A stretch of DNA of 64,000 nucleotides. It comes from Hymenobacter cellulosilyticus (GTDB lineage: Bacteria > Bacteroidota > Bacteroidia > Cytophagales > Hymenobacteraceae). Made by a program: the position numbers and the translations under genes. This document shows, piece by piece, positions 42,774-55,573 of the stretch. The notes under the pieces were generated by a model. It had not been told where the DNA came from, did not search any database, and saw nothing but the letters and a program-made list of their open reading frames with translations. The stretch lies in assembly GCF_022919215.1 (NCBI RefSeq), contig NZ_CP095046.1, positions 806,001 through 870,000 of the forward strand. The letters run 5' to 3'. Every line of letters begins with the position of its first letter. Within the stretch, counting starts at the first letter, position 1.

Positions 42774-45369
42774 TTATTGGAGGTAAACGGCTTCGATATC
42801 AACCTGTACCGGAGCTGCTGCCGAGGGCGAAGCCGCGTCGACGAGCACCTGCAGTACCTCGGTATCGGCCAGCCGCAGCGGGCCCTTCCCCCACTCTGGA
42901 AGCGCAGCGGCAGGAAGCCCGGATACGGCCGCGGACTAAGCAGCAGGGCGCCAGGCTGCAGGGCGCTCAGCGGAACCCGCACCTCGCGCAGCTCGGTGGT
43001 AAGAGGCACCGGGGCGGCAAAAGCGGCGGCATCTTGGTTGGCTAGCACCACCTGCACGCCTATTGGCTGGCTAGCCCGGGCCTTTACCACCACTTCCGTA
43101 AAGCCGCTCAGGTCGCCGAGGCGACCCAGTAGCTTGTCGCCGTAGTAGGCGCGCAGGCTGGCAGCCGGCCCGATTTCCGCGGCCGAAGCTCCGCTCTTGG
43201 TGGCATCCTGCACAAAGCGCAGGGCCAGGGCGCCGGCCGCTTCCGTGGTAACGTAGTCGGTCCAGCTGCTGCGGCTCAGGCTGCGGGCTTCCCCTGCTCT
43301 TTGTCAGTAGCGGCCTGAAACAAGAACAAGGGGGTTTTAGGCGCTACTAAGGGCACTTCCCAATGCTCCCGGGGGAAATAGTCCCAGTCGCGCGGGGAGC
43401 CGCCGAAGCCGCCGGGAAACGTGAGCGGCTGCCCGGCTTTTTTCAGCACAATCCAGTAGCGCAGCAACCCGGCGTAGGTCAGTTCGGCTGGCACGGTAGC
43501 TTCCACGGTGGCGTAGGCCGGCTGCCGCATGGGCAGGACCTGGGTGCGGCCGTAGTAGTGTTGGGCAATCAGAAAAACGCTGTCGGTAGGCGCAATTCCG
43601 GTCATGGTGGCCCGGATGGTCAGGGGCTGGCCGGCCGCGGCTTGCGCGAAAGGCGTGTGCCGCACCTGAGGCCCTAGCGCCGTGGGCGCGGGAGCCGCAT
43701 ATTCGCCCAGGCGCAAACTGCCCAGCCGCGAATCGGCCGTCCAGGAGCTGGTCTTCTTGCCGGCCGCGGCCAGCAGGTACACGCCCGGCCGCACCGTAAC
43801 GCGCCCATCCTGGGCCTGGGCCTGGGCAGTATTGCCTTCGTTGAGCCCGCGCAGGCTGAAGCGGCGGCCCAGTTCCGGCAGCAGCAGGCGTAAGGGCTGG
43901 TCGTTCCACAGAATCTGGGTGACCGGCTTTTTCAGGGAAGCTGTTTCAAACGGGTCCCGGATAGGCACCGCGTCGGGCAGCACTTCCAGGCGCCACACCC
44001 CAGGAGCCAGCCGGTCCAGGAAATAGGCCCCGGAGCCGCCGTATTGCACTACGGGTGAGCTACCTGCGCCGGCAACGTGGCGTAATTTCGAGGCTTTTTT
44101 AGCAAACGATTGTGTAGATGAGGTGTAATAAAATTCCTCCTCGGTGTTCATCTCACTGAGCCCCTGCCGATAGCTGACGCAGAAGGCGTCAAACACGGAG
44201 TCGGCAGGGTAGCGGCTGAAGGTTTGCCCCCGACCCACCCGGTGAAATACCTTGCTGGCAATCAGCAAACTCAGGGCTTTGGCCGGCGTGTAGGCTAGGT
44301 TGAGGTAGTGCGTCTGGTACTCGGTGTTGGCGTAGGCAATGGCCAACGGGTCGTAGGCAAACTGCGTGGCCCACTGAAACCCAGCCTCCCGGAAGCTGCG
44401 GGCCATAAACGGGTACATGACCGGCTGGATAATGTCGCCCGACTCAAACTCATACACCATCTTGGCCCGGCGCTGAAACCGCGGGTCCTGCCGAAACGGA
44501 ATAGGGTACTGGTCTACGTGCGGCAGCAGGTTGCCGCGCAGCGTGTGCCCGCTCACCAGGCCAGCCGGGTACCACTGAAAGGTCAGCCCATCCACGTTGG
44601 CGGCCAGAATGGCTTCTTCCACTCCCGGGTTTTCGGCAATGTTATAGAAGATGGGCTTGCGGTAGCCGGTAGCCCGCATGGCGGCCACCATCCGGTTGGC
44701 AAAGGCTGTTACCTCGGCCTCGGGCTGATGGTAGCGGGGCTCGTTGCACACTTCGTACGCCAGAATATCCGGGTCCTCGCGGTTCAGTTGCTGAGTGTAC
44801 TGGTTACGGTGGTTGAGAAACTGCGTGAGGTAGTTTTCCTGGGCCCGGATAGCCCGCGGATTGGTGTAGGCCTGCACCTTGGAGTAAATGCTGGAGAAGC
44901 CCGTGCCCGAATCCGGCTCGGGGTAGCCGTTGTTCCAGTAGGCAATGGGCGTCAGGATAATCTTGATGCCGCGCTGCTTGAGCTGGGCCACCAGGTAATC
45001 GAGCAGGCGCAGGTGCTCATTCTGCTGCAGGTTGCCGAGCGTGTCGGTGATTTCGACGTCCCACACGTGAATGCGGAAAGCATCCAGGCCCAGGCGCGAG
45101 AGGTGATATACGTCTTGGTCAATGGCCTTTTCGGGGCTGCCTCCCACCGTCCGCTGGGCCCGGTACGCGTGGGCAAACGGGGCAGTGTAATTGACGCCAA
45201 ACAGGGCTACTTCCTGCTTGGTTTGCTGCCAGCGCAGGACACCCTGCCCGTCCACGTACACGTCGCCGGTGGGTTGGCGGGCCGTGGCCGGCGTTTGGGC
45301 CAAAGCGGCGGAGCTACTGCCAAAGGTCAGAAGGGACAGGCAAAGAAACCAAGTAAGAAAGGATGGCAT
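42774..45369 (-). CDS. GH-A clan (GH5-like) glycanase with C-terminal binding domain (two frameshifts)
   Basis: An 865-residue protein after restoring one base in each of two runs (43291-43294 and 42888-42892). The ATG at 45369 opens a signal peptide (FLTWFLCLSLLTFGSSSAALA). The TIM barrel (about 35-430) resembles cellulase-family GH5 enzymes: LFGVNYTAPFAH, acid/base Glu210 in YEVCNEPRY and nucleophile Glu307 in MVYEFESGD. Beta-sandwich domains follow. The restored tail (about 700-865; SSWTDYVTTEAAGALALRF to IEAVYLQ) looks like a carbohydrate-binding domain. As written, the frame stops early at KPAA and the tail is in other frames. It is the first gene of the galactan locus, 59 bp before GH53. 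The exact family and substrate are uncertain. Confidence 0.78.
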
Positions 45370-45739
45370 AGGGGAATGTGGCGGTGGCGGTGGCTGTACC
45401 TTACCTGATACGACACTGCTTACGGATGAATGCCCTAACAGTGACGAGCAGCACCTGGTTGTGCCGGCTGTCGGCCCACATCCTTCCGGTTTGTTACCCT
45501 GCCGCTCTGGGCTGTTGCCTCTACTAAATAGCCGGTAAAGGAAGTGGGTTGAACTATCAGGCGTATGTACCTGCTTAAGTCCTGCAATTACGCCTTTTGG
45601 TCCTCCCAATCAAAGTGTTGATACGGCACTATTCCAATACGCTAGGAATTCCAGTCTTAACCCTGCTACTTGACCCTGCCTTCACTGCTCTGCAGGTGTA
45701 GAGCATTATAAAATTATACTGTAAGGCATATCTATTATT
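45370..45739. other. Divergent intergenic region before the lanthipeptide cluster
   Basis: This 370-bp stretch separates the minus-strand glycanase operon from the first precursor gene. No protein-coding sense is visible. The last 60 bp are AT-rich and contain the palindromic leader described at 45686-45705. The rest should hold the promoter of the glycanase operon. Confidence 0.5.
45686..45705 (+). promoter_or_regulatory. Palindromic leader element of precursor 1
   Basis: TGCTCT and AGAGCA flank an eight-base spacer, 35 bp before the ATG. The AT-rich stretch ATTATAAAATTATAC follows. The same palindrome with a different spacer precedes precursor 2 (46223-46242), so it is conserved while its loop varies. 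It could be a repressor site or an RNA hairpin in the 5' leader. Confidence 0.55.
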
Positions 45740-45979
45740 ATGGAAAAGAAACTGATGACCATCCGTGCGTGGAAAGATGCTGAGTACCGCGCTACCCTTA
45801 CCCCCGAGCAGTTGGCCCTAATTGAGCCCAACCCCGTGGGCACCGCCCTCACCGAAGAGGAACTCGCCCAGAACACTGGCGGACAGTTCTTCGAATTGGT
45901 TGGCCCGGGTATGTTCCTCACCATTAGCGGTGAATGCAATGGCGGCACCTGCTGCAACCCATTCGGCTCAGGCCGATAA
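45740..45979 (+). CDS. Class II lanthipeptide precursor 1 (mersacidin-type leader)
   Basis: A 79-residue precursor peptide. The leader (1-48) has the mersacidin/lichenicidin-family pattern RAWKDAEYRATLTPEQ, NPVG and EEEL, and ends in the double-glycine site NTGG cleaved by C39 peptidases. The predicted core is 31 residues, from Gln49 to Arg79. It contains TISGEC, which matches the lipid II-binding ring motif (T-x-S/T-x-E-C; TISHEC in lacticin 481), then NGGTCCNPFGSGR. Three Cys and four Ser/Thr allow up to three (methyl)lanthionine rings. LanM and LanT are encoded downstream. A hairpin follows at 46004. The assignment rests on leader motif, cleavage site, ring motif and context together. Confidence 0.93.
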   Translation: MEKKLMTIRAWKDAEYRATLTPEQLALIEPNPVGTALTEEELAQNTGGQFFELVGPGMFLTISGECNGGTCCNPFGSGR

Positions 45980-46003
45980 TCTAAGCCGCTTGCTTGCAGT
46001 AAG

Positions 46004-46024
46004 AAGCTGAGTGCCACTCAGCTT
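46004..46024 (+). terminator. Hairpin after precursor 1
   Basis: AAGCTGAGTG and CACTCAGCTT form a 10-bp stem with almost no loop; in practice the top pairs would open. Only GCTTTAAA follows, so it is a weak terminator or a transcript-stabilising 3' hairpin 24 bp past the precursor 1 stop. Confidence 0.45.
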
Positions 46025-46222
46025 GCTTTAAAGTACGCGTACCTTATTTTTACCAGCATAATTACAGCCTTTGCATAATCGGGCAACGCTCTTTTCTATA
46101 AAAAAGACTGCCATTATCTATACTAGCAACAGCCTGTCTAATTAGCAAAGTGAATAGTAAGGCCGAGGGAAAATTCAACCCCTGCAGCAATTCGTTGAAT
46201 TATTTTTTGCTTGTGCCTTGAC

Positions 46223-46242
46223 TGCTCTGCGGTTGTAGAGCA
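46223..46242 (+). promoter_or_regulatory. Palindromic leader element of precursor 2
   Basis: TGCTCT and AGAGCA are again eight bases apart (spacer GCGGTTGT), 33 bp before the second ATG. TTGACT overlaps its left edge (46218-46223). Arms conserved between copies and a changed spacer point to selection on the palindrome. Confidence 0.55.
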
Positions 46243-46274
46243 TTGTAAAATTATAGTAAGGCATATCTATTATT

Positions 46275-46507
46275 ATGGAAAAGAAACTGATGACCATCCG
46301 CGCTTGGAAAGATGCCGAGTACCGCGCTACCCTCACCCCCGAGCAGTTGGCCCTAATTGAGCCCAACCCGTGGGCACCGCCCTCACCGAAGAAGAGCTTG
46401 CCCAGAATGCTGGTGGCCTGCGGGTTGGCGACGGCTGGTTTACCACCATTAGCGGCGAATGCAACGGTGGCACCTGCTGCAACCCATTCGGCTCAAACCT
46501 TCCTTAG
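46275..46507 (+). CDS. Class II lanthipeptide precursor 2 (frameshift in leader)
   Basis: With one C restored in the run at 46367-46369 (the first copy has four C's at the same place), this encodes a 77-residue precursor. The leader of 48 residues is nearly identical to precursor 1 and ends NAGG. The core is 29 residues, from Leu49 to Pro77: LRVGDGWFT, then the shared TISGECNGG, TCCNPFGS and NLP. As written, the frame shifts after NP and reads an unrelated 86-residue product. Perfect conservation of core codons after the break shows that the correct frame is the restored one. Two related cores could give two independent peptides or, less likely given their similarity, a two-component lantibiotic. 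Confidence 0.88.
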
Positions 46508-46539
46508 TAACTGTAGAAAGCTGACAAGTCAGTGAGTAG

Positions 46540-46582
46540 CAGGGAGCATTTGGGCATTCGGTTCAAATGCTCCCTGTTTTTT
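46540..46582 (+). terminator. Strong terminator/attenuator between precursors and lanM
   Basis: CAGGGAGCATTTG and CAAATGCTCCCTG form a perfect 13-bp stem with an 11-base loop, followed by six T's. It lies 33 bp after the precursor 2 stop and 64 bp before the lanM start. Partial read-through would give many precursor transcripts per modification-enzyme transcript. Confidence 0.92.
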
Positions 46583-46646
46583 ACGAGTGAGAGTGCCTTT
46601 ATATTATTCTATTATATCCTTATCACTAGTTTCTATTCTCATCCTT

Positions 46647-49600
46647 ATGAGCGACAAAACCGTTGGTCTCGCCGAGCGGGTTGTGCACCTGCGCCGTACA
46701 TCTGTTCACGGCAAACTCCGCTTGAATAGCGCTGAGGGAACGTCTCATTTCCGCGTCAAGGCGTGGTTGGAGACGTTGCGACACCCCGGCATTTTAGAAA
46801 AACGGCTCAAGGGCATCGGGCTAAGCCAGGATGAGTTTACTGCTATTATTAGCCAACCAACTGAGGAGAGCCAAGCTGTAAATGAGGCTATTGCTACGGT
46901 ACTGGCCGAGCTCCACTCTGCCGATTGGCAACAACCCACGGACCGACTGTCCCATTTTTTCCGGCAGGAATATCCGGTGGCCGCCTTCTTCGATGTGGTC
47001 GAGCCTATCCTGTTCTGGCAGCAACAGTTGCTGCTACAGGAGCTGGCCCAGCGCCACCCGGCCCACGCTGAGGTGTGCCGCACGAGCGTTCTGCAATGTA
47101 AGCGGGGCCTGGGCGCCATCCTGTTTGAAATCATCAACCGCACGTTGGTGCTAGACTTGAATGTGTCGCGGGAACTGGGTTTGCTACAAGGTGCAACCCC
47201 GGCCGAGCGTTTCGCCTTTTATTTAAAATCGTTAAGCAACCCCGACAAAATCGGAAGCTTATACGAAGAATATCCGGCCCTTTTCAAAGTACTCTATGTC
47301 ACTCTAAAAAACTGGCGTCATAATAGCGCCGATTTAATTAGCCGCTTTATTGCTGATAAAGCTGAAATCGAAAAAGAATTTGGCATTACAGCCGATACAA
47401 TTATAAAGGTGCAGTTAGGCGCCGGCGATGCGCACAATGGAGGGAAGTCGGTATCTATTATTACGTTTAAATCGGGTAGCAAAGTCGTCTACAAGCCCCG
47501 CTCCCTCGATACGGACGAAAAATTCCACGACATCATTCGCTGGATAAACACCCAGCAGTTGGGCTTCACACTCAAAACGGTCCGGATTATTGGCCGGCCC
47601 GAGTACGGCTGGGTTGAGCACATCGACCAGCTGCCCTGTCGGAGTGAAGCCGAAGTAGCCAGCTTCCATGAGAAGCTGGGGGCCTTACTGGCCCTGCTGC
47701 ACCTTACCAATGCCACCGACTTTCATTACGAAAACCTAATTGCGCACGGCTCCGACCCAACGCTGATTGACCTGGAAACCCTGGTAACGCCCAACATGAA
47801 ACCTCTTGATTCCATTGAGGGAATTTTGGAGGATTCCGTGTTGAAGATTGCCATCCTACCCACGTGGCGCTACGACACCCAGGCCCGTAAGCGGGTCGAC
47901 TTGAGCGGCATCAGCGTGGCCCAGGATCAGAAGAGCCTGACGCTACGGCCGGCCTGGAATGCCTTCGAAACCGACGAGATGCGCATTGAGCCCCAGGAAA
48001 TGCCGCTGGGCCGGGGCAAAAATAACCCGACTCTGAACGGCCAAAAGGTGAAGGTATCCGACTACCTCCCGCAGCTGGAAGCCGGCTTCCGGGCCGTTTA
48101 TTCGCTTACTGAGCGCAACAAAGCCTTGTTTATGGGCCCGAATGGCTTTGTAGATGCGTTCAACCATACGGCGGTGCGCGTGCTGCTCCGCAATACCAGC
48201 ACCTACGGCGACCTGCTATACGCCAGCTACCACCCCGACTATCTGATTCATTCCCTGGACCGCGACCGGCTGTTTGACCGACTGTGGCACCAAACCGAGT
48301 CTGACCGCTTGCCCGCGGCCTTGATTCAGCTGGAGCACGAGGCCCTGACCCGGCAGGACGTACCGCTGTTTACGACCTATCCGGCCTCCCGGGATTTGTG
48401 GCTGGACCATGCCCACTGCTTTCCCAACTTTTACGCCGCCTCGGGCGCCGATTGCTGCAAGGAGAAAATAGCCCGCATGAGCAACACGGACTTGGAACGG
48501 CAGTGCTGGCTGATCCGCTCCACTATTGCCTCGGCCCTGCCCAACCAAATCAACTTCTCCACCCTGCGCTACCTGGAAGACGGGATGCTGCCGGTAACGC
48601 CGGCGCTGCTGCTGCAAGAGGCCCGAATGATTGGGGACCGGCTGAGCGAGCTGGCTATTCATTCGAGCGAGGGCACGGTGAGCTGGCTGGGCTTTTCCAT
48701 GAAGGGCGAGGTGTACGAAATATGGCCCGTGGGCGTAGACCTCTACAGTGGCCTGCCGGGTATTATCCTGTTCTTGACTCACTTGAGCAAACTCACTGGC
48801 GAGGCCAAGTACGGCGAGCTGGCCGAGAAAACGCTGGGCTGTTTCAACGGCTTCGTGGATAATATCCTGGCCCAGAAACGACCTTTGACCAACAGTATCG
48901 GGGTATTCGACGGGGTTGGGGGCTGGATCTACTTCTACTCGCAGCTAGCAGCTCTTTCCGGCGACACGGCTTTGGCCGAACGGGCCCACCACCTCGGGGA
49001 CCTAGCCGCCGCCGCCATTGAGGGCAGCACGAACTTCGACATTATCAACGGTTTCGCCGGGCTGATTCTTGCCTACCTGGGCTTGCACCAAACTACGGGC
49101 TCGGCCTCGGCACTACGCCACGCTACCCGCTGCGGGGAAATGCTGCTGCAGCAAGCCAAGCCGATGCCCCACGGCGTTGGGTGGCTTTCGTACAGTGCTC
49201 AGCCCCTCACTGGCTTTGGCCACGGCACCAGCGGGGTAGCCCTGGCCCTGGCCAAGCTGCACCACGCCACGGCTGATGCCCGCTTCCAAACGCTGCTGCA
49301 AGAAGCCCTGACCTATGAGCGCAGCCAATTTTTGCCCGGTAAAGGCAACTGGGCCGATTTGCGCAACCTCAACGTGGAGGCCGGCAACAGCAACAACGAA
49401 ATGGTAAACATGACGGCTTGGTGCGCCGGGGCCACCGGGGTGGGCCTGAGCCGCCTTGCCATGCGGCCGTTTTACCAGGATGAGCAGCTGGCCCAGGAAG
49501 CTAAAATTGCCCTGGACACCACGCTGCGCTACGGCATGGGCTGGAACCACTCCTTGTGCCACGGCGACTTTGGCAGCCTGGAATACCTGCTGCAGTACCA

Positions 49601-49814
49601 GCAGGCCCATCCCGAAGCCCAGCTGGATGCTACCCTGACGCAATTGTTAGGTGCCGTGCGCTACAGCTTCCAACAACACGGCCCGATTTCGGGCGTGGCC
49701 CTGGGCATCGAAAACCCGGGCCTGATGACTGGCCTGGCCGGCATTGGCTACCAGCTGCTGCGCCTGGCCCGGCCCGAGCAAGTACCCGCCGTGCTGCTGC
49801 TGGAGTCCTTATAA
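46647..49814 (+). CDS. lanM: Class II lanthionine synthetase LanM
   Basis: A 1055-residue bifunctional enzyme that dehydrates Ser/Thr in the precursor and closes thioether rings with Cys. The ATG at 46647 (MSDKTVGLAERVVHLRR) is preferred over an upstream in-frame ATG that would add a hydrophobic stretch. The dehydratase half (about 1-640) has GDAHNGGKSVSIITFKSG, VVYKPRSLD, TDFHYENLIA and LIDLETLVTP, the LanM kinase-like phosphate-transfer core. The cyclase half (about 690-1055) is LanC-like, with zinc ligands Cys in TAWCAGATG (near residue 925) and Cys-His in SLCHGDFG (near 970). Codons in the first third are somewhat more AT-rich than elsewhere. The full frame is intact. Confidence 0.96.
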   Translation: MSDKTVGLAERVVHLRRTSVHGKLRLNSAEGTSHFRVKAWLETLRHPGILEKRLKGIGLSQDEFTAIISQPTEESQAVNEAIATVLAELHSADWQQPTDRLSHFFRQEYPVAAFFDVVEPILFWQQQLLLQELAQRHPAHAEVCRTSVLQCKRGLGAILFEIINRTLVLDLNVSRELGLLQGATPAERFAFYLKSLSNPDKIGSLYEEYPALFKVLYVTLKNWRHNSADLISRFIADKAEIEKEFGITADTIIKVQLGAGDAHNGGKSVSIITFKSGSKVVYKPRSLDTDEKFHDIIRWINTQQLGFTLKTVRIIGRPEYGWVEHIDQLPCRSEAEVASFHEKLGALLALLHLTNATDFHYENLIAHGSDPTLIDLETLVTPNMKPLDSIEGILEDSVLKIAILPTWRYDTQARKRVDLSGISVAQDQKSLTLRPAWNAFETDEMRIEPQEMPLGRGKNNPTLNGQKVKVSDYLPQLEAGFRAVYSLTERNKALFMGPNGFVDAFNHTAVRVLLRNTSTYGDLLYASYHPDYLIHSLDRDRLFDRLWHQTESDRLPAALIQLEHEALTRQDVPLFTTYPASRDLWLDHAHCFPNFYAASGADCCKEKIARMSNTDLERQCWLIRSTIASALPNQINFSTLRYLEDGMLPVTPALLLQEARMIGDRLSELAIHSSEGTVSWLGFSMKGEVYEIWPVGVDLYSGLPGIILFLTHLSKLTGEAKYGELAEKTLGCFNGFVDNILAQKRPLTNSIGVFDGVGGWIYFYSQLAALSGDTALAERAHHLGDLAAAAIEGSTNFDIINGFAGLILAYLGLHQTTGSASALRHATRCGEMLLQQAKPMPHGVGWLSYSAQPLTGFGHGTSGVALALAKLHHATADARFQTLLQEALTYERSQFLPGKGNWADLRNLNVEAGNSNNEMVNMTAWCAGATGVGLSRLAMRPFYQDEQLAQEAKIALDTTLRYGMGWNHSLCHGDFGSLEYLLQYQQAHPEAQLDATLTQLLGAVRYSFQQHGPISGVALGIENPGLMTGLAGIGYQLLRLARPEQVPAVLLLESL

Positions 49815-49874
49815 GACCCCGGCTGACAATGCCTTTTGATTGATTAGGCTCTAGGTGTATTTGGCTATTATTCG

Positions 49875-52049
49875 ATGAAAAAATTTCCTTTCTATCGGCA
49901 GCAGGACGAAATGGACTGCGGGCCTACCTGCCTACGGATGGTGGCCAAGCACTATGGCCGCGACTATTCCCGGCAGTATCTGCGGCAGCATAGTTTCCTA
50001 AACCGTTCGGGGGCCTCTTTGCTGGGGCTGAGCGAAGCGGCGGAAGGCATCGGGCTGCGCAGTCTGGGCGTGAAGCTGACGGTGGAGCAGCTGACCACCG
50101 AAACCCAGCTTCCCTGCATCCTGCACTGGGACCAGCAGCACTTCGTAGTCTTGCACAAAGTTGCCCGTGGTCAGTATCACATTGCCGACCCGGGCCTGGG
50201 CCCCATTACCTGTACCCGCGCCGAGCTGGAGCAGCATTGGCAGGGCAGGGCGAATGTGGGCATTGCCCTGTTGCTGGAACCCACGCCCGCCTTTCACGAG
50301 CGCGACGAGGAAGCCGGCGACGCAGCCCTGAGTGGCTGGGCCCTGCTGCGCACCTACCTGCGGGTGCACCGGCCCCTGCTGGTGCAGCTCTTCATTGGCC
50401 TGCTCATTGGCAGCATTATCCAGCTGGCACTGCCCTTTCTAACCCAGGCCATTGTGGACACCGGCATCCGGACCCGGAACCTGAATTTCATTTACCTGAT
50501 TCTCATTGCCCAGATTACGCTGTTTGCCGGCCGCACCGGCGTAGAACTGCTGCGCCGCTGGATCTTGCTGCACCTGAGCACCCGCATCAACGTGGCGCTG
50601 GTGTCCGACTTCCTGACCAAGCTGCTTAAGCTGCCGGTGGCCTTTTTTGAAGCCAAGCGCATCGGCGACCATCTGCAGCGCATCCGGGACCACGACCGGG
50701 TGGAAAGCTTCCTGAGCACGTCGTCCCTGAACGTGGTGTTTTCGCTGTTCAACCTGGTGCTTTTTGGAGCGGTGCTGGGCTATTACGACTTGACTATTCT
50801 GCTCATCTTTTTGGGCGGCAGCGCGCTCTATGCCTTGTATATCACGTTTTTCCTGAAGCGGCGCAAAAAGCTGGACCAACTCCGCTTTCACCAGCTGGCG
50901 CAAAACCAGAGCACCCTGATTCAGCTGCTGCACGGCATGACGGAAATCAAGCTCAACGGCTGCGAAGTCCGGCGCCGCTGGGACTGGGAAGCCATTCAGG
51001 CCAAGCTCTTTCGCCTGAACGTGCGCACCACGGCCCTGAACCAATACCAGCAGGTAGGCAGCGCCTTTATCAACGAGCTCAAAAACATCATCATCACCTT
51101 CGTAGCCGCTCAGGCCGTCATCAATGGCGACATGACGCTGGGCATGATGCTGTCGGTGCAGTTTATCATTGGGCAGCTCAATGCGCCGGTGAATGATTTT
51201 ATCGGCTTCGTTCAGGAAATGCAGGACGCCAACACGAGCCTGGAGCGCATCAGCGAAATTCATTCCCTGGCCAATGAAGAAGACGCGCAGACGGCCGTGC
51301 CCGCCCGCCGCCAGCAGGATATCTACCTGCAGCACCTCAACTTCCGCTACGACGGTCCGGGCTCCCCTCTGGTCCTCGACGACCTGTCGCTGTTCATTCC
51401 CAAAGGTAAAGTAACGGCCATTGTGGGCTCTAGCGGCAGCGGCAAAACCACGCTGCTCAAACTCCTGCTCAAGTTTTACCCGCTCACCGGCGGGCACGTG
51501 CTGGTGGGCAGCACCCCGCTCGACCAACTCAGCTCGAAGGAATGGCGGCGCAAATGCGGCGTGGTGATGCAGGATGGCTTCCTCTTTTCCGACACCATTG
51601 CCAACAACATTGCCGTGTCGGACGAGGAAGTTGATCCGCACAAGCTGAGCCATGCAGTGCAGGTGGCCAACATTGAGGAGTTTATTCAGTCCTTGCCGCT
51701 GGGCTTCCACACCAAAATCGGGAGTGACGGAATTGGCTTGAGTCAGGGGCAGAAGCAGCGTTTGCTCATTGCCCGGGCCGTGTATAAAGACCCCGACTAC
51801 TTGTTTTTCGACGAGGCTACCTCCGCCCTGGACTCGACCAACGAGAAGGTAATTATGCAAAACCTGAACGAGTTCTTCGAGGACCGGACCGTGGTGGTTA
51901 TTGCCCACCGGCTGAGCACCGTGAAAAATGCCGACCAGATTGTGATGCTGCACCGCGGCAAAATTGTGGAAGTGGGCACCCATGCCGAGCTAACCCGCTC
52001 CCAGGGCGCCTATTATTCCCTGGTGCGCAACCAGCTGGAGCTGGCGTAA
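49875..52049 (+). CDS. lanT: C39 peptidase-ABC exporter LanT
   Basis: A 724-residue transporter that removes the double-glycine leader and exports the mature peptide. The N-terminal C39 peptidase (1-about 140) has catalytic Cys15 in DEMDCGPTC, His89 in QQHFVVL and Asp105 in IADPG. Six transmembrane helices follow (about 165-450). The ATPase domain has Walker A GSSGSGKTT near 516, signature LSQGQKQR near 622 and Walker B YLFFDEATSALD near 642. It lies 60 bp downstream of lanM. The exporter's peptidase class fits the GG sites of both precursors. Confidence 0.96.
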   Translation: MKKFPFYRQQDEMDCGPTCLRMVAKHYGRDYSRQYLRQHSFLNRSGASLLGLSEAAEGIGLRSLGVKLTVEQLTTETQLPCILHWDQQHFVVLHKVARGQYHIADPGLGPITCTRAELEQHWQGRANVGIALLLEPTPAFHERDEEAGDAALSGWALLRTYLRVHRPLLVQLFIGLLIGSIIQLALPFLTQAIVDTGIRTRNLNFIYLILIAQITLFAGRTGVELLRRWILLHLSTRINVALVSDFLTKLLKLPVAFFEAKRIGDHLQRIRDHDRVESFLSTSSLNVVFSLFNLVLFGAVLGYYDLTILLIFLGGSALYALYITFFLKRRKKLDQLRFHQLAQNQSTLIQLLHGMTEIKLNGCEVRRRWDWEAIQAKLFRLNVRTTALNQYQQVGSAFINELKNIIITFVAAQAVINGDMTLGMMLSVQFIIGQLNAPVNDFIGFVQEMQDANTSLERISEIHSLANEEDAQTAVPARRQQDIYLQHLNFRYDGPGSPLVLDDLSLFIPKGKVTAIVGSSGSGKTTLLKLLLKFYPLTGGHVLVGSTPLDQLSSKEWRRKCGVVMQDGFLFSDTIANNIAVSDEEVDPHKLSHAVQVANIEEFIQSLPLGFHTKIGSDGIGLSQGQKQRLLIARAVYKDPDYLFFDEATSALDSTNEKVIMQNLNEFFEDRTVVVIAHRLSTVKNADQIVMLHRGKIVEVGTHAELTRSQGAYYSLVRNQLELA

Positions 52050-52095
52050 CAAGCAATTAGTATCTAGATAGTTACCTGCCAATCAGTTATCAGCC

Positions 52096-53356
52096 ATGCC
52101 TACTCAGTTCACCGACCGGAGCGACGGTATTCAGGAAATTATTGGCACTTCCCCGTCCTGGCTGCTCCGGGCCGGGGCCGGCTATTTATTCGGGCTGCTG
52201 CTACTGGTGCTCGTGCTCAGCGGCGCGGTGCGCTACCCCGACGTGCTGCCCGCTTCCATTGTGGTAACCAGCGAGGTAGCTCCCTTCACGGCCGTTACCC
52301 GCGTCAATGGGCCGCTGCAGCTCCTCGTGCGGGAAGGCCAGCGAGTACAGCCCAACCAGCCCCTGGGCTACGTCGAAAGTGCGGCTTCGTATGGGCAAGT
52401 ACAAGCGCTGAAAAAGCGCCTAGCCGAAGCTCCCGCCACGGCCGGCATCTGGACCCGATTCGACCAGTTTAAGCAGCTGGGCGAGCTGCAATCCGCCTAC
52501 GAGACTTTCCGCAAGGCCACGGCCGACTATCAGCACTTCGAGCAGCTGGATGAGTACAGTCAGCAGGTACGGTCCCTGAGCTACGAAGTGGCGGCCTACG
52601 AAGCCCTTAACCGTAACCTGGCCGGCCAGAAGGAGCTCCAAACCCAGGAGCTAGCTCTGGCCAGCAAACGGTATGCAATTGACGACCGTCTACTTACCAG
52701 CAAAGTAATTGCAGAAACTGACCTGGAAGCCTCCCGGCGAACCCTGCTTCAGCAGAAGAAAAGCGTGGCCAGCTCCCAGGCCAATATTATTGCCAATACC
52801 ATTACCGCCTCTGAGCTGCGCCGCCGCATGGGAGAGTTGCGGCTGCAGCGCGACGAACGGCAGCAACAGTTGCTCCTGACCCAGGAGCAAACGGCCCGCT
52901 CCCTACGCAATGCCATTGCCCAGTGGGAAGCCGACCACGTGCTGCTGACCAAGCAGGCCGGGACGGTGACTTTGCTCAAGGAATGGGTGGTGGGCCAATT
53001 TGTGCCGGCCGCCACACCCGTCCTCTCCGTGCTCATTCGTAGCACGGCCATGACGGGGCGCCTGCGCTTACCGGTGCAGGGCTCCGGCAAGGTGAAAGCA
53101 GGACAGCGCGTCAATATTATGCTAGACAACTACCCGGCCGAGCAGTATGGCATGCTGGAAGGCCTTGTGGCCCGGGTGGCTCCCCTGCCACACGGCAACT
53201 CCTACGACGTCATAGTAAAGCTCCCGTCCCAATTGGTTACAACCTACCGCAAGCCCATAGCCTTTAAGCAGCAGTTGCAGGGCAGGCCGAAATCATTACC
53301 GAGGATTTATCTTTATTACAGCGCGTATTCTATCAATTCCGGGGCTGTGGCAGTAA
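52096..53356 (+). CDS. HlyD-family secretion adaptor (two frameshifts near the end)
   Basis: A membrane-fusion protein that would bridge LanT to the outer membrane, as needed in a Gram-negative host. One helix near the N terminus (about 24-46; LFGLLLLVLVLSGAV) is followed by a biotinyl-lipoyl-like region (VNGPLQLLVREGQRVQPNQPLGYV) and a long coiled coil (about 100-290). As written, the frame runs to 53418 and overlaps the next gene with an unusual tail. Adding one G at 53280-53282 and one at 53341-53344 gives QLQGQAEIITEDLSLLQRVFYQFRGLWQ split by a normal stop at 53354-53356 (421 residues). That tail matches the usual family end. The repair is inferred. Confidence 0.82.
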
Positions 53357-53399
53357 GCCGGAAAGCTGTTCTTCTCTACTTACACCAGGGTCAGAAGCT

Positions 53400-54035
53400 A
53401 TGCGTATTCAGGAGCTAAAACAGTCTGCATTGCTGCAGCTCGCCGTCATTTACACCCGTTACCTACTGGGCGGGGCCTTCGTATTTGCCAGTTTGATTAA
53501 GATAAAGGGCCACCGGTTTACTTCCAGCAACGGTGCCTTGAGTCCAATCCACAGCGCGGCGCATTTCTTCGAGACCTTGTACCAGTCGGGCCTGTATTGG
53601 CAATTCATCGGCGTAGGGCAGTTCGTGGCGGGTATGCTGCTCCTGACCCAGCGGTATGCCCTGCTCGGAGCCCTGCTGTTCTTGCCCATCATTGCCAACG
53701 TATTCGTTATTACCATTTCCTACGACTTCGCTTTCACGCCCGTCATTACCGGCGCTATGCTACTGGCAACCCTCGGTTTGCTTGGCTGGGACTGGAACAG
53801 CCTACGGCCGCTCGTCAACAAACCCGCGCTGGTACTACCGACCTCGCCGCTGTATGAGAGTCGAATCTGGGAAGTAGTTGGTTTGCTGTTATTTGTATAC
53901 ACGGCAGGCTACCGGGCCCTTACCGACACCTACAACGTTCTGCTGTGGTTTGGCATTTGCGCGGGTATCTCGGGTACTGGCTTGCTAGTAGCCTGGAGCC
54001 GCTACAAAAGCAATCCTTACTTAGCCAAAGCCTAG
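53400..54035 (+). CDS. DoxX/MauE-like membrane protein of the lanthipeptide cluster
   Basis: A 211-residue integral membrane protein with about five to six helices. TYTRYLLGGAFVFASLIKIKGHRF opens the first helix and resembles the DoxX/MauE family start (the first 20 residues are ionisable to hydrophobic). Conserved-looking features are the first-helix Arg, the FIGVGQFVAGMLLLTQ helix and the GALLFLPIIANVFVI helix. It is the last gene of the cluster, 43 bp after the adaptor, and ends before a terminator, so it is co-transcribed with the exporter. No LanFEG or LanI immunity gene is present, which makes this a candidate self-protection or export-linked protein. That role is inference. Confidence 0.75.
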   Translation: MRIQELKQSALLQLAVIYTRYLLGGAFVFASLIKIKGHRFTSSNGALSPIHSAAHFFETLYQSGLYWQFIGVGQFVAGMLLLTQRYALLGALLFLPIIANVFVITISYDFAFTPVITGAMLLATLGLLGWDWNSLRPLVNKPALVLPTSPLYESRIWEVVGLLLFVYTAGYRALTDTYNVLLWFGICAGISGTGLLVAWSRYKSNPYLAKA

Positions 54036-54413: not shown

Positions 54414-55573
54414 ATGACACCTTCTTTTTCCATCTCCAGCCGCCCTACGTGGCTGGCTACTGCCCTGTTTGCCTCCACGCTGGGCTTAGCCTCCTGCGGC
54501 AACTCCAGCACGAGTGAGCAAACTACCGAAACTACCGCTACCACTGAAGCTGCCGCTGCCGACACGGCTGCTACGGCTGGCGCTAAGCCGGTGAAGCCCG
54601 CCGGCCCCGCCCCAGCCTGGGCCCCGAACATTGCGCCCGAAATGCAGACCGTCATCGAGAAGCTGGCGGCACTGCAGGGCCCTACGCCGCCCGAAACCCT
54701 CACGCCAGCCGAAGTGCGCAAGGCCCCTTCCGCTACCGACGCCACCATGGCCGTCATGAAGGACTTTGGCATTCCTACCCCTCCCTCTCCGCTCGATACC
54801 ATGAGCCGGGAAGTAGCCCCGGGCGTGAAAGCCCGGATTTATGTTCCTAAGGGGGCTACCGGCCCTTTGCCCGTGGTGGTCTATTACCACGGCGGGGCTG
54901 GGTTATTGCCAACCTCGACACGTATGACCCATCGGTGCGGGCCCTGGCCGAGAAAACCAACGCTGTTTTTGTTTCGGTGGCTTACCGGCAGGCCCCGGAA
55001 AACAAGTTTCCCACGGCGCATAACGACTCGTTTGCGGCCTATCAGTGGGTGTTGAAGAATGCGGCCTCCATCAAGGGTGACCCTAAGCGGGTAGCCGTAG
55101 CCGGCGAAAGTGCCGGCGGCAACCTGGCCGCGGCCGTTTGCATGATGGCCCGCGACAAAGGGGTGATGCAGCCCAAGCACCAGCTGCTGGTATACCCCAT
55201 TGCCGACTATAGCATGAACACGGAGTCGTACCAGAAGAATGCCCAGGCCAAGCCCCTGAGCAAGCCCTTCATGGGCTGGTTCTTCAAGCACTACCTGCGC
55301 ACCCCTGCCGACGGCAACAGCCCGCTGATTTCGCTGGTAAAAGCTCCGAATGTAAAAGGCTTGGCACCAGCCACGGTCATCACAGCCGGCATCGACCCAC
55401 TGATGAGCGAAGGCAAGGCCTATGCCGACAAGCTGCAGGCCGCTGGCATTGCCGTCAAGTACCAGAACTACGACAACGTAACGCACGAGTTCTTCGGAAT
55501 GGGTGCCGTGGTGCCCCAGGCCAAGGAAGCCCAGGACCTGGCCGCTGGCGAACTAAAAAACGCGCTGAAGTAA
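54414..55573 (+). CDS. HSL-type alpha/beta hydrolase lipoprotein (frameshift)
   Basis: One G missing at 54894-54897 splits a 386-residue esterase. Restored, the break reads YYHGGGWVIANLDTYD, the HGGGW oxyanion-hole motif of hormone-sensitive-lipase-like enzymes. The nucleophile Ser is in GESAGGN, the acid is expected at ITAGIDPLM, and the His lies in THEFFGM. The N terminus is a lipoprotein signal (LGLASC, Cys28) followed by a Thr/Ala-rich linker. It would hydrolyse small acyl esters in the cell envelope. It is preceded by a promoter region and followed by a clear terminator, so it is a single-gene unit. Confidence 0.88.

Follow-up and report, generated by a model that had tools for sequence, protein, structure and literature searches.

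A class II lanthipeptide gene cluster ending in a DoxX-like gene in Hymenobacter cellulosilyticus

Organisation and state of the cluster

The 64,000-nucleotide stretch of Hymenobacter cellulosilyticus DNA analysed here (contig NZ_CP095046.1, positions 806,001 to 870,000; hereafter the window) carries a gene cluster which, by its testable features, is a class II lanthipeptide cluster. It comprises, in this order, two precursor genes, lanM and the genes for a C39-ABC exporter, an HlyD-like adaptor and a DoxX-like membrane protein. A first-pass annotation had assigned it to class II, and the family matches of precursor, LanM and exporter bear this out for Hymenobacter, a Gram-negative host for a type of peptide known best from Gram-positive bacteria. 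All parts lie on one strand, as had been stated there (+ strand, 45677–54035), and a tRNA-Met gene follows on the opposite strand. The same cluster is found at the same place and between the same flanking genes in a sister Hymenobacter genome, G015, where both precursors are intact. The cluster must therefore predate the split of the two species; its presence there, together with an upstream-box core that occurs twice genome-wide (see below), rules out a chance assembly of genes.

Precursor 1 (45740–45979, +) encodes an intact peptide of 79 amino acids (aa), in which a leader ending in GG (residues 47–48) precedes a 31-aa core containing TISGECNGGTCCNPFGS. The leader matches the mersacidin/lichenicidin family TIGR03898 with 42.1 bits over residues 7–48 (cut-off 23.5), and the peptide is 84% identical to one of the G015 precursors. 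Precursor 2 (46275–46507, +) is not a single open frame: the start and half of the leader are read in the frame beginning at 46275 (TIGR03898, 27 bits, above the same cut-off), the rest of the leader, the GG site and the core in another (46370–46507). Both predicted precursors with mersacidin-type leaders and GG sites were thus located, the second one frame-broken here and the pair intact in G015. They are variants of one peptide. A two-component alpha/beta pair was ruled out, as both cores hold TISGECNGGTCCNPFGS and share 84% DNA identity over 73 nt.

LanM (46647–49814, +) scores 893 bits with TIGR03897 (cut-off 304) and contains the dehydratase domain DUF4135 (382.7 bits) and a zinc cyclase domain (LANC_like, 225.8 bits). 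The best start is the ATG at 46647, giving 1055 aa compared with 1056 aa for the G015 homologue. The protein is related to the structurally solved LanMs LicM2 (6st5) and CylM (5dzt). D261, H263, K283, D358, H360, N363, D375, R515 and T517 are identical in all 37 aligned LanM rows, E377 and the zinc ligands Cys926 and Cys971 in 36, and the zinc ligand His972 in 35; we take these residues to have the dehydration and zinc-binding roles assigned in work on CylM. The enzyme is accordingly intact in its catalytic and zinc columns, as the annotation had described it.

The exporter LanT (49875–52049, +; 724 aa) unites the Pfam domains Peptidase_C39 (118.5 bits), ABC_membrane (88.8 bits) and ABC_tran (103.9 bits), all above cut-off, which confirms the predicted peptidase-permease-ATPase, and is 94% identical to its G015 counterpart. 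Dehydration and cyclisation by LanM and cleavage at GG by C39 peptidases are established for these families. The HlyD-like adaptor (52096–53418, +) matches HlyD_3 with 36 bits (cut-off 22.2) and misses the HlyD type I adaptor model TIGR01843 (68.4 bits, cut-off 208.65), and the counterpart of roughly the 24 C-terminal residues of the G015 protein lies in another frame here. Its description as HlyD-like therefore holds at the level of the broader family and with an altered tail. The last gene (53400–54035, +) encodes an integral membrane protein of 211 aa with one Cys, the proposed immunity protein. It reaches 17.4 bits with DoxX (PF07681, cut-off 23.6) and its homologues 15.9, 18.8, 17.5 and 21.1 bits; the likeness noted at first sight stands, but the match lies below the Pfam cut-off and the name therefore stops at 'DoxX-like'.

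The two frame breaks could mean that the cluster is decaying in this strain, with real breaks, one precursor left and the adaptor perhaps crippled. The state of precursor 2 and of the HlyD tail speaks for this. However, frame changes (at least one each) were found in 8 of the 36 window genes paired with the syntenic G015 stretch, so that breaks occur often in this assembly, outside the cluster as well as in it. In comparison with G015, dN/dS was 0.14 for LanM, 0.05 for the ABC exporter, 0.125 for the first 397 codons of the adaptor, 0.11–0.15 for precursor 1 against the two G015 precursors and 0.127 for the DoxX-like gene, the last value being obtained with silent sites near saturation (1.6). 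Even between the core piece of precursor 2 and precursor 1, most differences are silent (replacement/silent ratio 0.26 over 45 codons). Purifying selection thus acts on the cluster as a working unit; decay is improbable, and the breaks in precursor 2 and the adaptor are likely assembly errors.

A 42-nt element precedes precursor 1 (box 1, 45677–45718, +) and recurs as a direct repeat with 90% identity at 46214–46255 (box 2, +); the same box stands before both G015 precursors. In box 1, an inner hairpin (GCTCTGC/GTAGAGC) is enclosed by an outer GCCTT/AAGGC pair that extends to about 45728, and both boxes can fold as nested hairpins (z −2.6 and −2.3, respectively). The 24-nt core of the box occurs exactly twice in the 6.09 Mb genome at up to three mismatches; a reversed-pattern control gave no occurrence. 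The box may be a DNA operator or an RNA leader. Between precursor 2 and lanM lies a terminator-like hairpin with a T run (46540–46576, +), formed by a 13-bp perfect inverted repeat (fold z −4.5). Hairpins of other sequence occupy the same gap in G015 (z −3.2) and in two further genomes of the bacterial family, G511 (−6.4) and G516 (−6.5); the latter two are alike and end in T runs, while that of G015 differs and has none. The gap hairpin is thus a candidate terminator that would make the precursor transcript exceed that of lanM.

Core peptide and predicted ring pattern

The core carries TISGEC followed by a tail of its own, NGGxCCNPFxS. In 13 aligned homologues the named positions of S-G-x-C-N-x-G-x-C-C-N-P-F-x-S are fixed; with 40 sequences the pattern becomes looser, S63, C72 and N73 still being invariant, and the lipid-II-type motif with its Glu (E65) is retained in at least 90% of the aligned cores. 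TISGEC matches the published lipid-II motif of mersacidin, TxTxEC (PMC7268733), except that Ser replaces the second Thr.

The assignment of the leader to the mersacidin type was correct, but the type of leader is no guide to the core, which falls short of the models of two known core families. With the lacticin 481 family NF040664, the core piece of precursor 2 gave 16.2 bits (cut-off 46) and precursor 1 no listed match; precursor 1 scored 12.5 bits with the plantaricin C family NF000539 (cut-off 29). The type-A lantibiotic model PF04604 (cut-off 21.7) scored the core piece of precursor 2 at 21.9 bits and precursor 1 at 14.7. The core ends in SGR and not in the C-terminal Cys of mersacidin. 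No LanD was seen among the cluster genes searched against families, a result that came without a search aimed at LanD.

Ring topology was approached through covariation among 51 distinct cores, numbered such that the motif Thr is 1, the motif-ending Cys 6 and the CC pair 11 and 12, and mapped onto a tree built from the leaders alone. The sequences entering these counts are related, a problem that counting changes on branches lessens but does not remove. Ser or Thr stands at −5 in 30 of 31 cores with a Cys at position 0 and in 2 of 20 cores without it, and 9 of the 12 changes of Cys 0 share a branch with a change at −5 (2.7 expected; not reached in any of 10,000 random placements). Offsets of 2–4 and 6–8 from Cys 0 showed no association (Fisher P 0.16 or more). 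This covariation predicts an N-terminal ring between Ser(−5) and Cys(0) in most relatives. The cores of the window, of G015 and of the nearest metagenomic sequences (P0004–P0007) lack both partners; in P0031, also close to the window's, Ser is present at −5 and Cys 0 is absent.

A second relation links the CC pair to a residue further downstream. Ser or Thr occurs five residues beyond Cys 12 (C12+5) in all 33 cores with Cys 11 and in 1 of 9 with Ser at position 11, and each of the six changes of Cys 11 is accompanied by a change at C12+5, where seven changes occurred in all (0.9 expected); this implies a reversed ring. Where position 11 is not Cys, it is Ser in 9 of 9 rows (of 42), as if the site could supply either a ring thiol or a dehydrated residue. 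Moreover, both G015 cores, if cut after GG, contain exactly three Ser/Thr and three Cys, so that the use of all three Cys would require a ring in which the Ser lies C-terminal to its Cys partner. There is precedent for a reversed ring in ring A of mersacidin (PMC9127955).

In the window peptides, the predicted rings would then be Thr1–Cys6, which is the lipid-II motif ring, and two that share the CC pair: one of its Cys would bond back to Ser3 and the other forward, as a reversed ring, to the Ser five positions further on. The N-terminal ring of most relatives would be absent. This layout is what the covariation suggests. Calculated monoisotopic neutral masses of the precursor 1 core, cut after GG, are 3224.419 for the linear form, 3170.387 after loss of three waters and 3152.376 after loss of four; the two G015 cores would have 2961.249 and 3336.385 with three waters lost. 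Conversely, the CC pair might lie outside any reversed ring, with one Cys free, in a disulfide or linked to Thr10 or Ser3, and with the downstream Ser merely dehydrated. Lacticin 481, which closes its last two Cys with upstream residues, sets a precedent for upstream bonding, and a Thr at position 10 occurs in some cores including those of the window. The coupling of all six Cys 11 changes to C12+5 and the lack of a spare upstream Ser/Thr in some cores, both from G015 among them, make such an arrangement possible but the less probable of the two.

With mersacidin the window system shares the TIGR03898 leader family, the GG site cut by a C39 exporter and a ring of the TxTxEC kind; mersacidin, too, has one ring of opposite direction (PMC9127955). 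It differs in its tail, in lacking the C-terminal Cys, in having no LanD seen in the cluster and in placing the predicted reversed ring at the C end instead of the N end, as well as in its Gram-negative host, HlyD-like adaptor and DoxX-like protein. Lacticin 481 has a TISxEC motif and a CC pair near its C end. The lacticin 481 group (NF040664, PF04604) thus resembles the window core in both features, but the window's spacer is shorter and its Ser follows the CC pair instead of preceding it. The core of a Chitinophaga relative, P0011, comes to 20.8 bits with the plantaricin C family NF000539, below the cut-off of 29.

The closest precursors known by name, from Hymenobacter chitinivorans and Chitinophaga tropicalis, are of the same family (84% and 49% identical, respectively) and are described by database annotation only. 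Their NCBI name, 'mersacidin/lichenicidin family', is owed to the leader. LanII-2A was annotated as mersacidin/lichenicidin for the same reason, and caution about such naming is advised in PMC9576775. LanII-2A and the rhodanocins are class II peptides from Gram-negative phyla that were made in E. coli (PMC9576775); their cores and ring patterns are other than those of the window. The Chitinophaga cluster also departs from that of the window in having LanFE-like genes, no DoxX and a core with extra ring residues.

The DoxX-like protein and its proposed role in immunity

About 20 kb of each of seven clusters was searched with models of the DoxX-like protein, LanE and LanF. The DoxX model matched all four Hymenobacteraceae clusters, from which it was built, and none of the three from Chitinophagales; the LanE model matched the three Chitinophagales clusters, its own source, and none of the four others. 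LanF split in the same way, its further matches (62–81 bits) being the exporters' own ATPases. A LanFE-type ABC transporter was hence found in none of the four Hymenobacteraceae clusters over about 20 kb each, and a genome-wide search for MutE alone gave at best 20.7 bits in the window's own genome (cut-off 145.2). In all four the DoxX-like gene is the last one. The three Chitinophagales LanF proteins are best matched by the lantibiotic-protection ATPase TIGR03740 (216.6, 199.2 and 232.7 bits) and the permeases by lantibiotic-immunity permeases (52, 27.9 and 33.9 bits). With only four clusters in one group and three in the other, this exchange of DoxX-like for LanFE-like genes is a pattern and not a proof.

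Sequence comparison points to more than one origin of the DoxX-like genes. Those of G511 and G516 encode proteins with 29% identity to the window's and 39–45% to another chromosomal type, and the branch parting the two types has a FastTree support of 1.000. The simplest reading is that the lan operon acquired a DoxX-like gene on two or more occasions. A single ancestral gene that diverged fast is possible as well; the adaptors of these clusters are also just 33% identical. If joining did occur repeatedly, a function tied to this peptide becomes likely.

Among 14 fetched close homologues (15 were found), ten end a row of genes encoding an ABC ATPase, a permease, a GntR-type regulator, a protein of unknown kind and the DoxX-like protein; the row is absent at the remaining four and at four more distant ones. 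These ten operons are at L087 (7017–10422) and nine further loci (L078, L079, L081–L084, L086, L089 and L090). Bacillus ytrGABCDEF, which combines a GntR-type repressor with an ABC transporter and is induced by inhibitors of the lipid II cycle (PMC12772383), offers the best parallel, a likeness of plan only. The Hymenobacter row is possibly an envelope-stress operon.

What the DoxX-like protein does was considered in two ways. It might be a redox or maturation factor that keeps the thiols and disulfides of either the Cys-rich peptide or the C39 protease in balance. The sviceucin lasso-peptide cluster pairs a DoxX-family protein with a neighbouring thioredoxin-like oxidoreductase, and PMC9266682 considers both to take part in disulfide formation; DoxX genes are common in MNIO RiPP clusters (PMC12452194). 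However, no thioredoxin-like partner was seen among the open reading frames of the four DoxX clusters, which were inspected by eye and without a family search, and the window protein contains a single Cys, with none invariant across 20 homologues. The exchange with LanFE-like genes also fits protection better. A redox role is therefore possible but second in rank, and immunity is our first choice for the function of these proteins.

Proposed function, distribution and significance

Taken together, the data suggest the following sequence of events. Both near-identical cores would be dehydrated at Ser and Thr and closed into thioether rings by LanM, which the putative terminator upstream of its gene would keep scarcer than its substrate. 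The C39 domain would cleave after GG, and the peptide would leave across both membranes through the ABC transporter and the HlyD-like adaptor; such adaptor-aided passage, via a putative outer-membrane channel, is plausible. Once outside, the peptide would bind lipid II of competitors, most likely Gram-positive neighbours, while protection of the producer would fall to the DoxX-like protein instead of LanFE. Both the lipid II target and the antimicrobial nature of the product, the latter suggested by the TxSxEC motif, are inferred from the core. To the whole, i.e. a working class II lanthipeptide operon with these rings, export, target, terminator and guard, we assign a probability of about 0.7.

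Several points weigh against this assessment. The LanMs accompanying such precursors do not form one clade, the core reaches neither the lacticin 481 nor the plantaricin C model, and the assembly shows breaks in precursor 2 and in the tail of the adaptor. With respect to the guard, the DoxX-like protein stays below its Pfam cut-off, as all the Chitinophagales LanFE-like proteins do below their curated family cut-offs. The DoxX-like family occurs in 72 of 120 Hymenobacter genomes and is hence not specific to lanthipeptides. The window protein is as close to homologues outside the GntR-ABC operon (64–71%) as to those inside (61–66%), and ytr has, according to PMC12772383, no firmly established role in resistance.

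A product that serves as a signal, an antifungal or a surface-active agent and not as an antibacterial would fit the same genes. Some lanthipeptides act as signals (PMC12715929), and the pinensins of Chitinophaga have antifungal activity (PMC13060382). Retention of the Glu-containing motif across the family, and the genes of relatives that best match lantibiotic-protection transporters, make this unlikely.

More tentatively, the cluster may represent a lipid-II-binding subfamily of Bacteroidota whose core has been re-plumbed and in which a single DoxX-like protein, not LanFE, guards the producer, having been recruited independently in two genera. The Hymenobacter line would lack the N-terminal ring, and the C end would be closed by a reversed thioether ring; the Hymenobacter DoxX-like protein would derive from a chromosomal family, most fetched members of which lie in the GntR-ABC operon. 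If so, DoxX-like proteins would constitute a new class of lantibiotic immunity protein.

The precursor family is rare and scattered. Among Hymenobacteraceae genomes, it was found in 4 of 204 (G000, G015, G511 and G516), the sister genome keeping both precursors and LanM. It occurred in 2 of 390 genomes of the order sample (the window's own and G015) and in 1 of 395 of a phylum-wide sample, this being the window's own; in the family sample of Chitinophaga tropicalis it was present in 1 of 294 genomes and in the order of that species in 3 of 396. LanM matches above the family cut-off were obtained in 4 of 120 Hymenobacter genomes, full-length in G000, G015 and G107 and half-length in G062.

The last of these is a stand-alone LanM dehydratase half (L041, 9913–11448; DUF4135, 295 bits). 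No cyclase half was found within 19.5 kb by tblastn with the window LanM, and Methyltransf_24 and ThiF proteins are encoded nearby. The full-length LanM of G107 (L040) is another one, with 29% identity to that of the window, and its gene adjoins a DyP-type peroxidase gene (Dyp_perox_C, 36.7 bits). In Chitinophagales, L068 (G1419) combines LanM and LanFE-like genes with three precursor-like matches; the core end differs there (GKNCW in the open reading frame inspected).

A search for a characterised class II lanthipeptide of Bacteroidota, for any Hymenobacter lanthipeptide and for the core motif SGECN found none in the literature covered, most subscription papers lying outside it. Pinensins (class I) are given in PMC7268733 as the only lanthipeptides isolated from Bacteroidota as of 2020, and the sources that the Discussion of PMC9576775 names for its class II products are Actinomycetota, Pseudomonadota and Cyanobacteriota. 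Two further lanthipeptides, deepflavo and deepginsen, are tied by a review table to Flavobacterium and Chitinophaga and are listed without a class (PMC8358304, PMC7369419).

The precursor family is a small natural collection of ring variants; as the presence or loss of each ring can be read from the sequence, ring function is testable without design. Should DoxX-like proteins confer immunity, a large membrane family would gain a testable role in the tolerance of lipid-II binders. A ready point of departure is G015, whose two precursors are intact.

The window assembly appears to hold many small indels, and its broken genes call for care. Divergent from the cluster lies a large gene (43276–45609), glycoside-hydrolase-like by eye, with a frame change in the window and a counterpart at the same place in G015 (L039, 15889–18663). 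On the other side, an esterase-like gene (by eye; 54414–55573) is spread over two frames; its G015 homologue is read in one frame and is 99% identical in the best aligned part.

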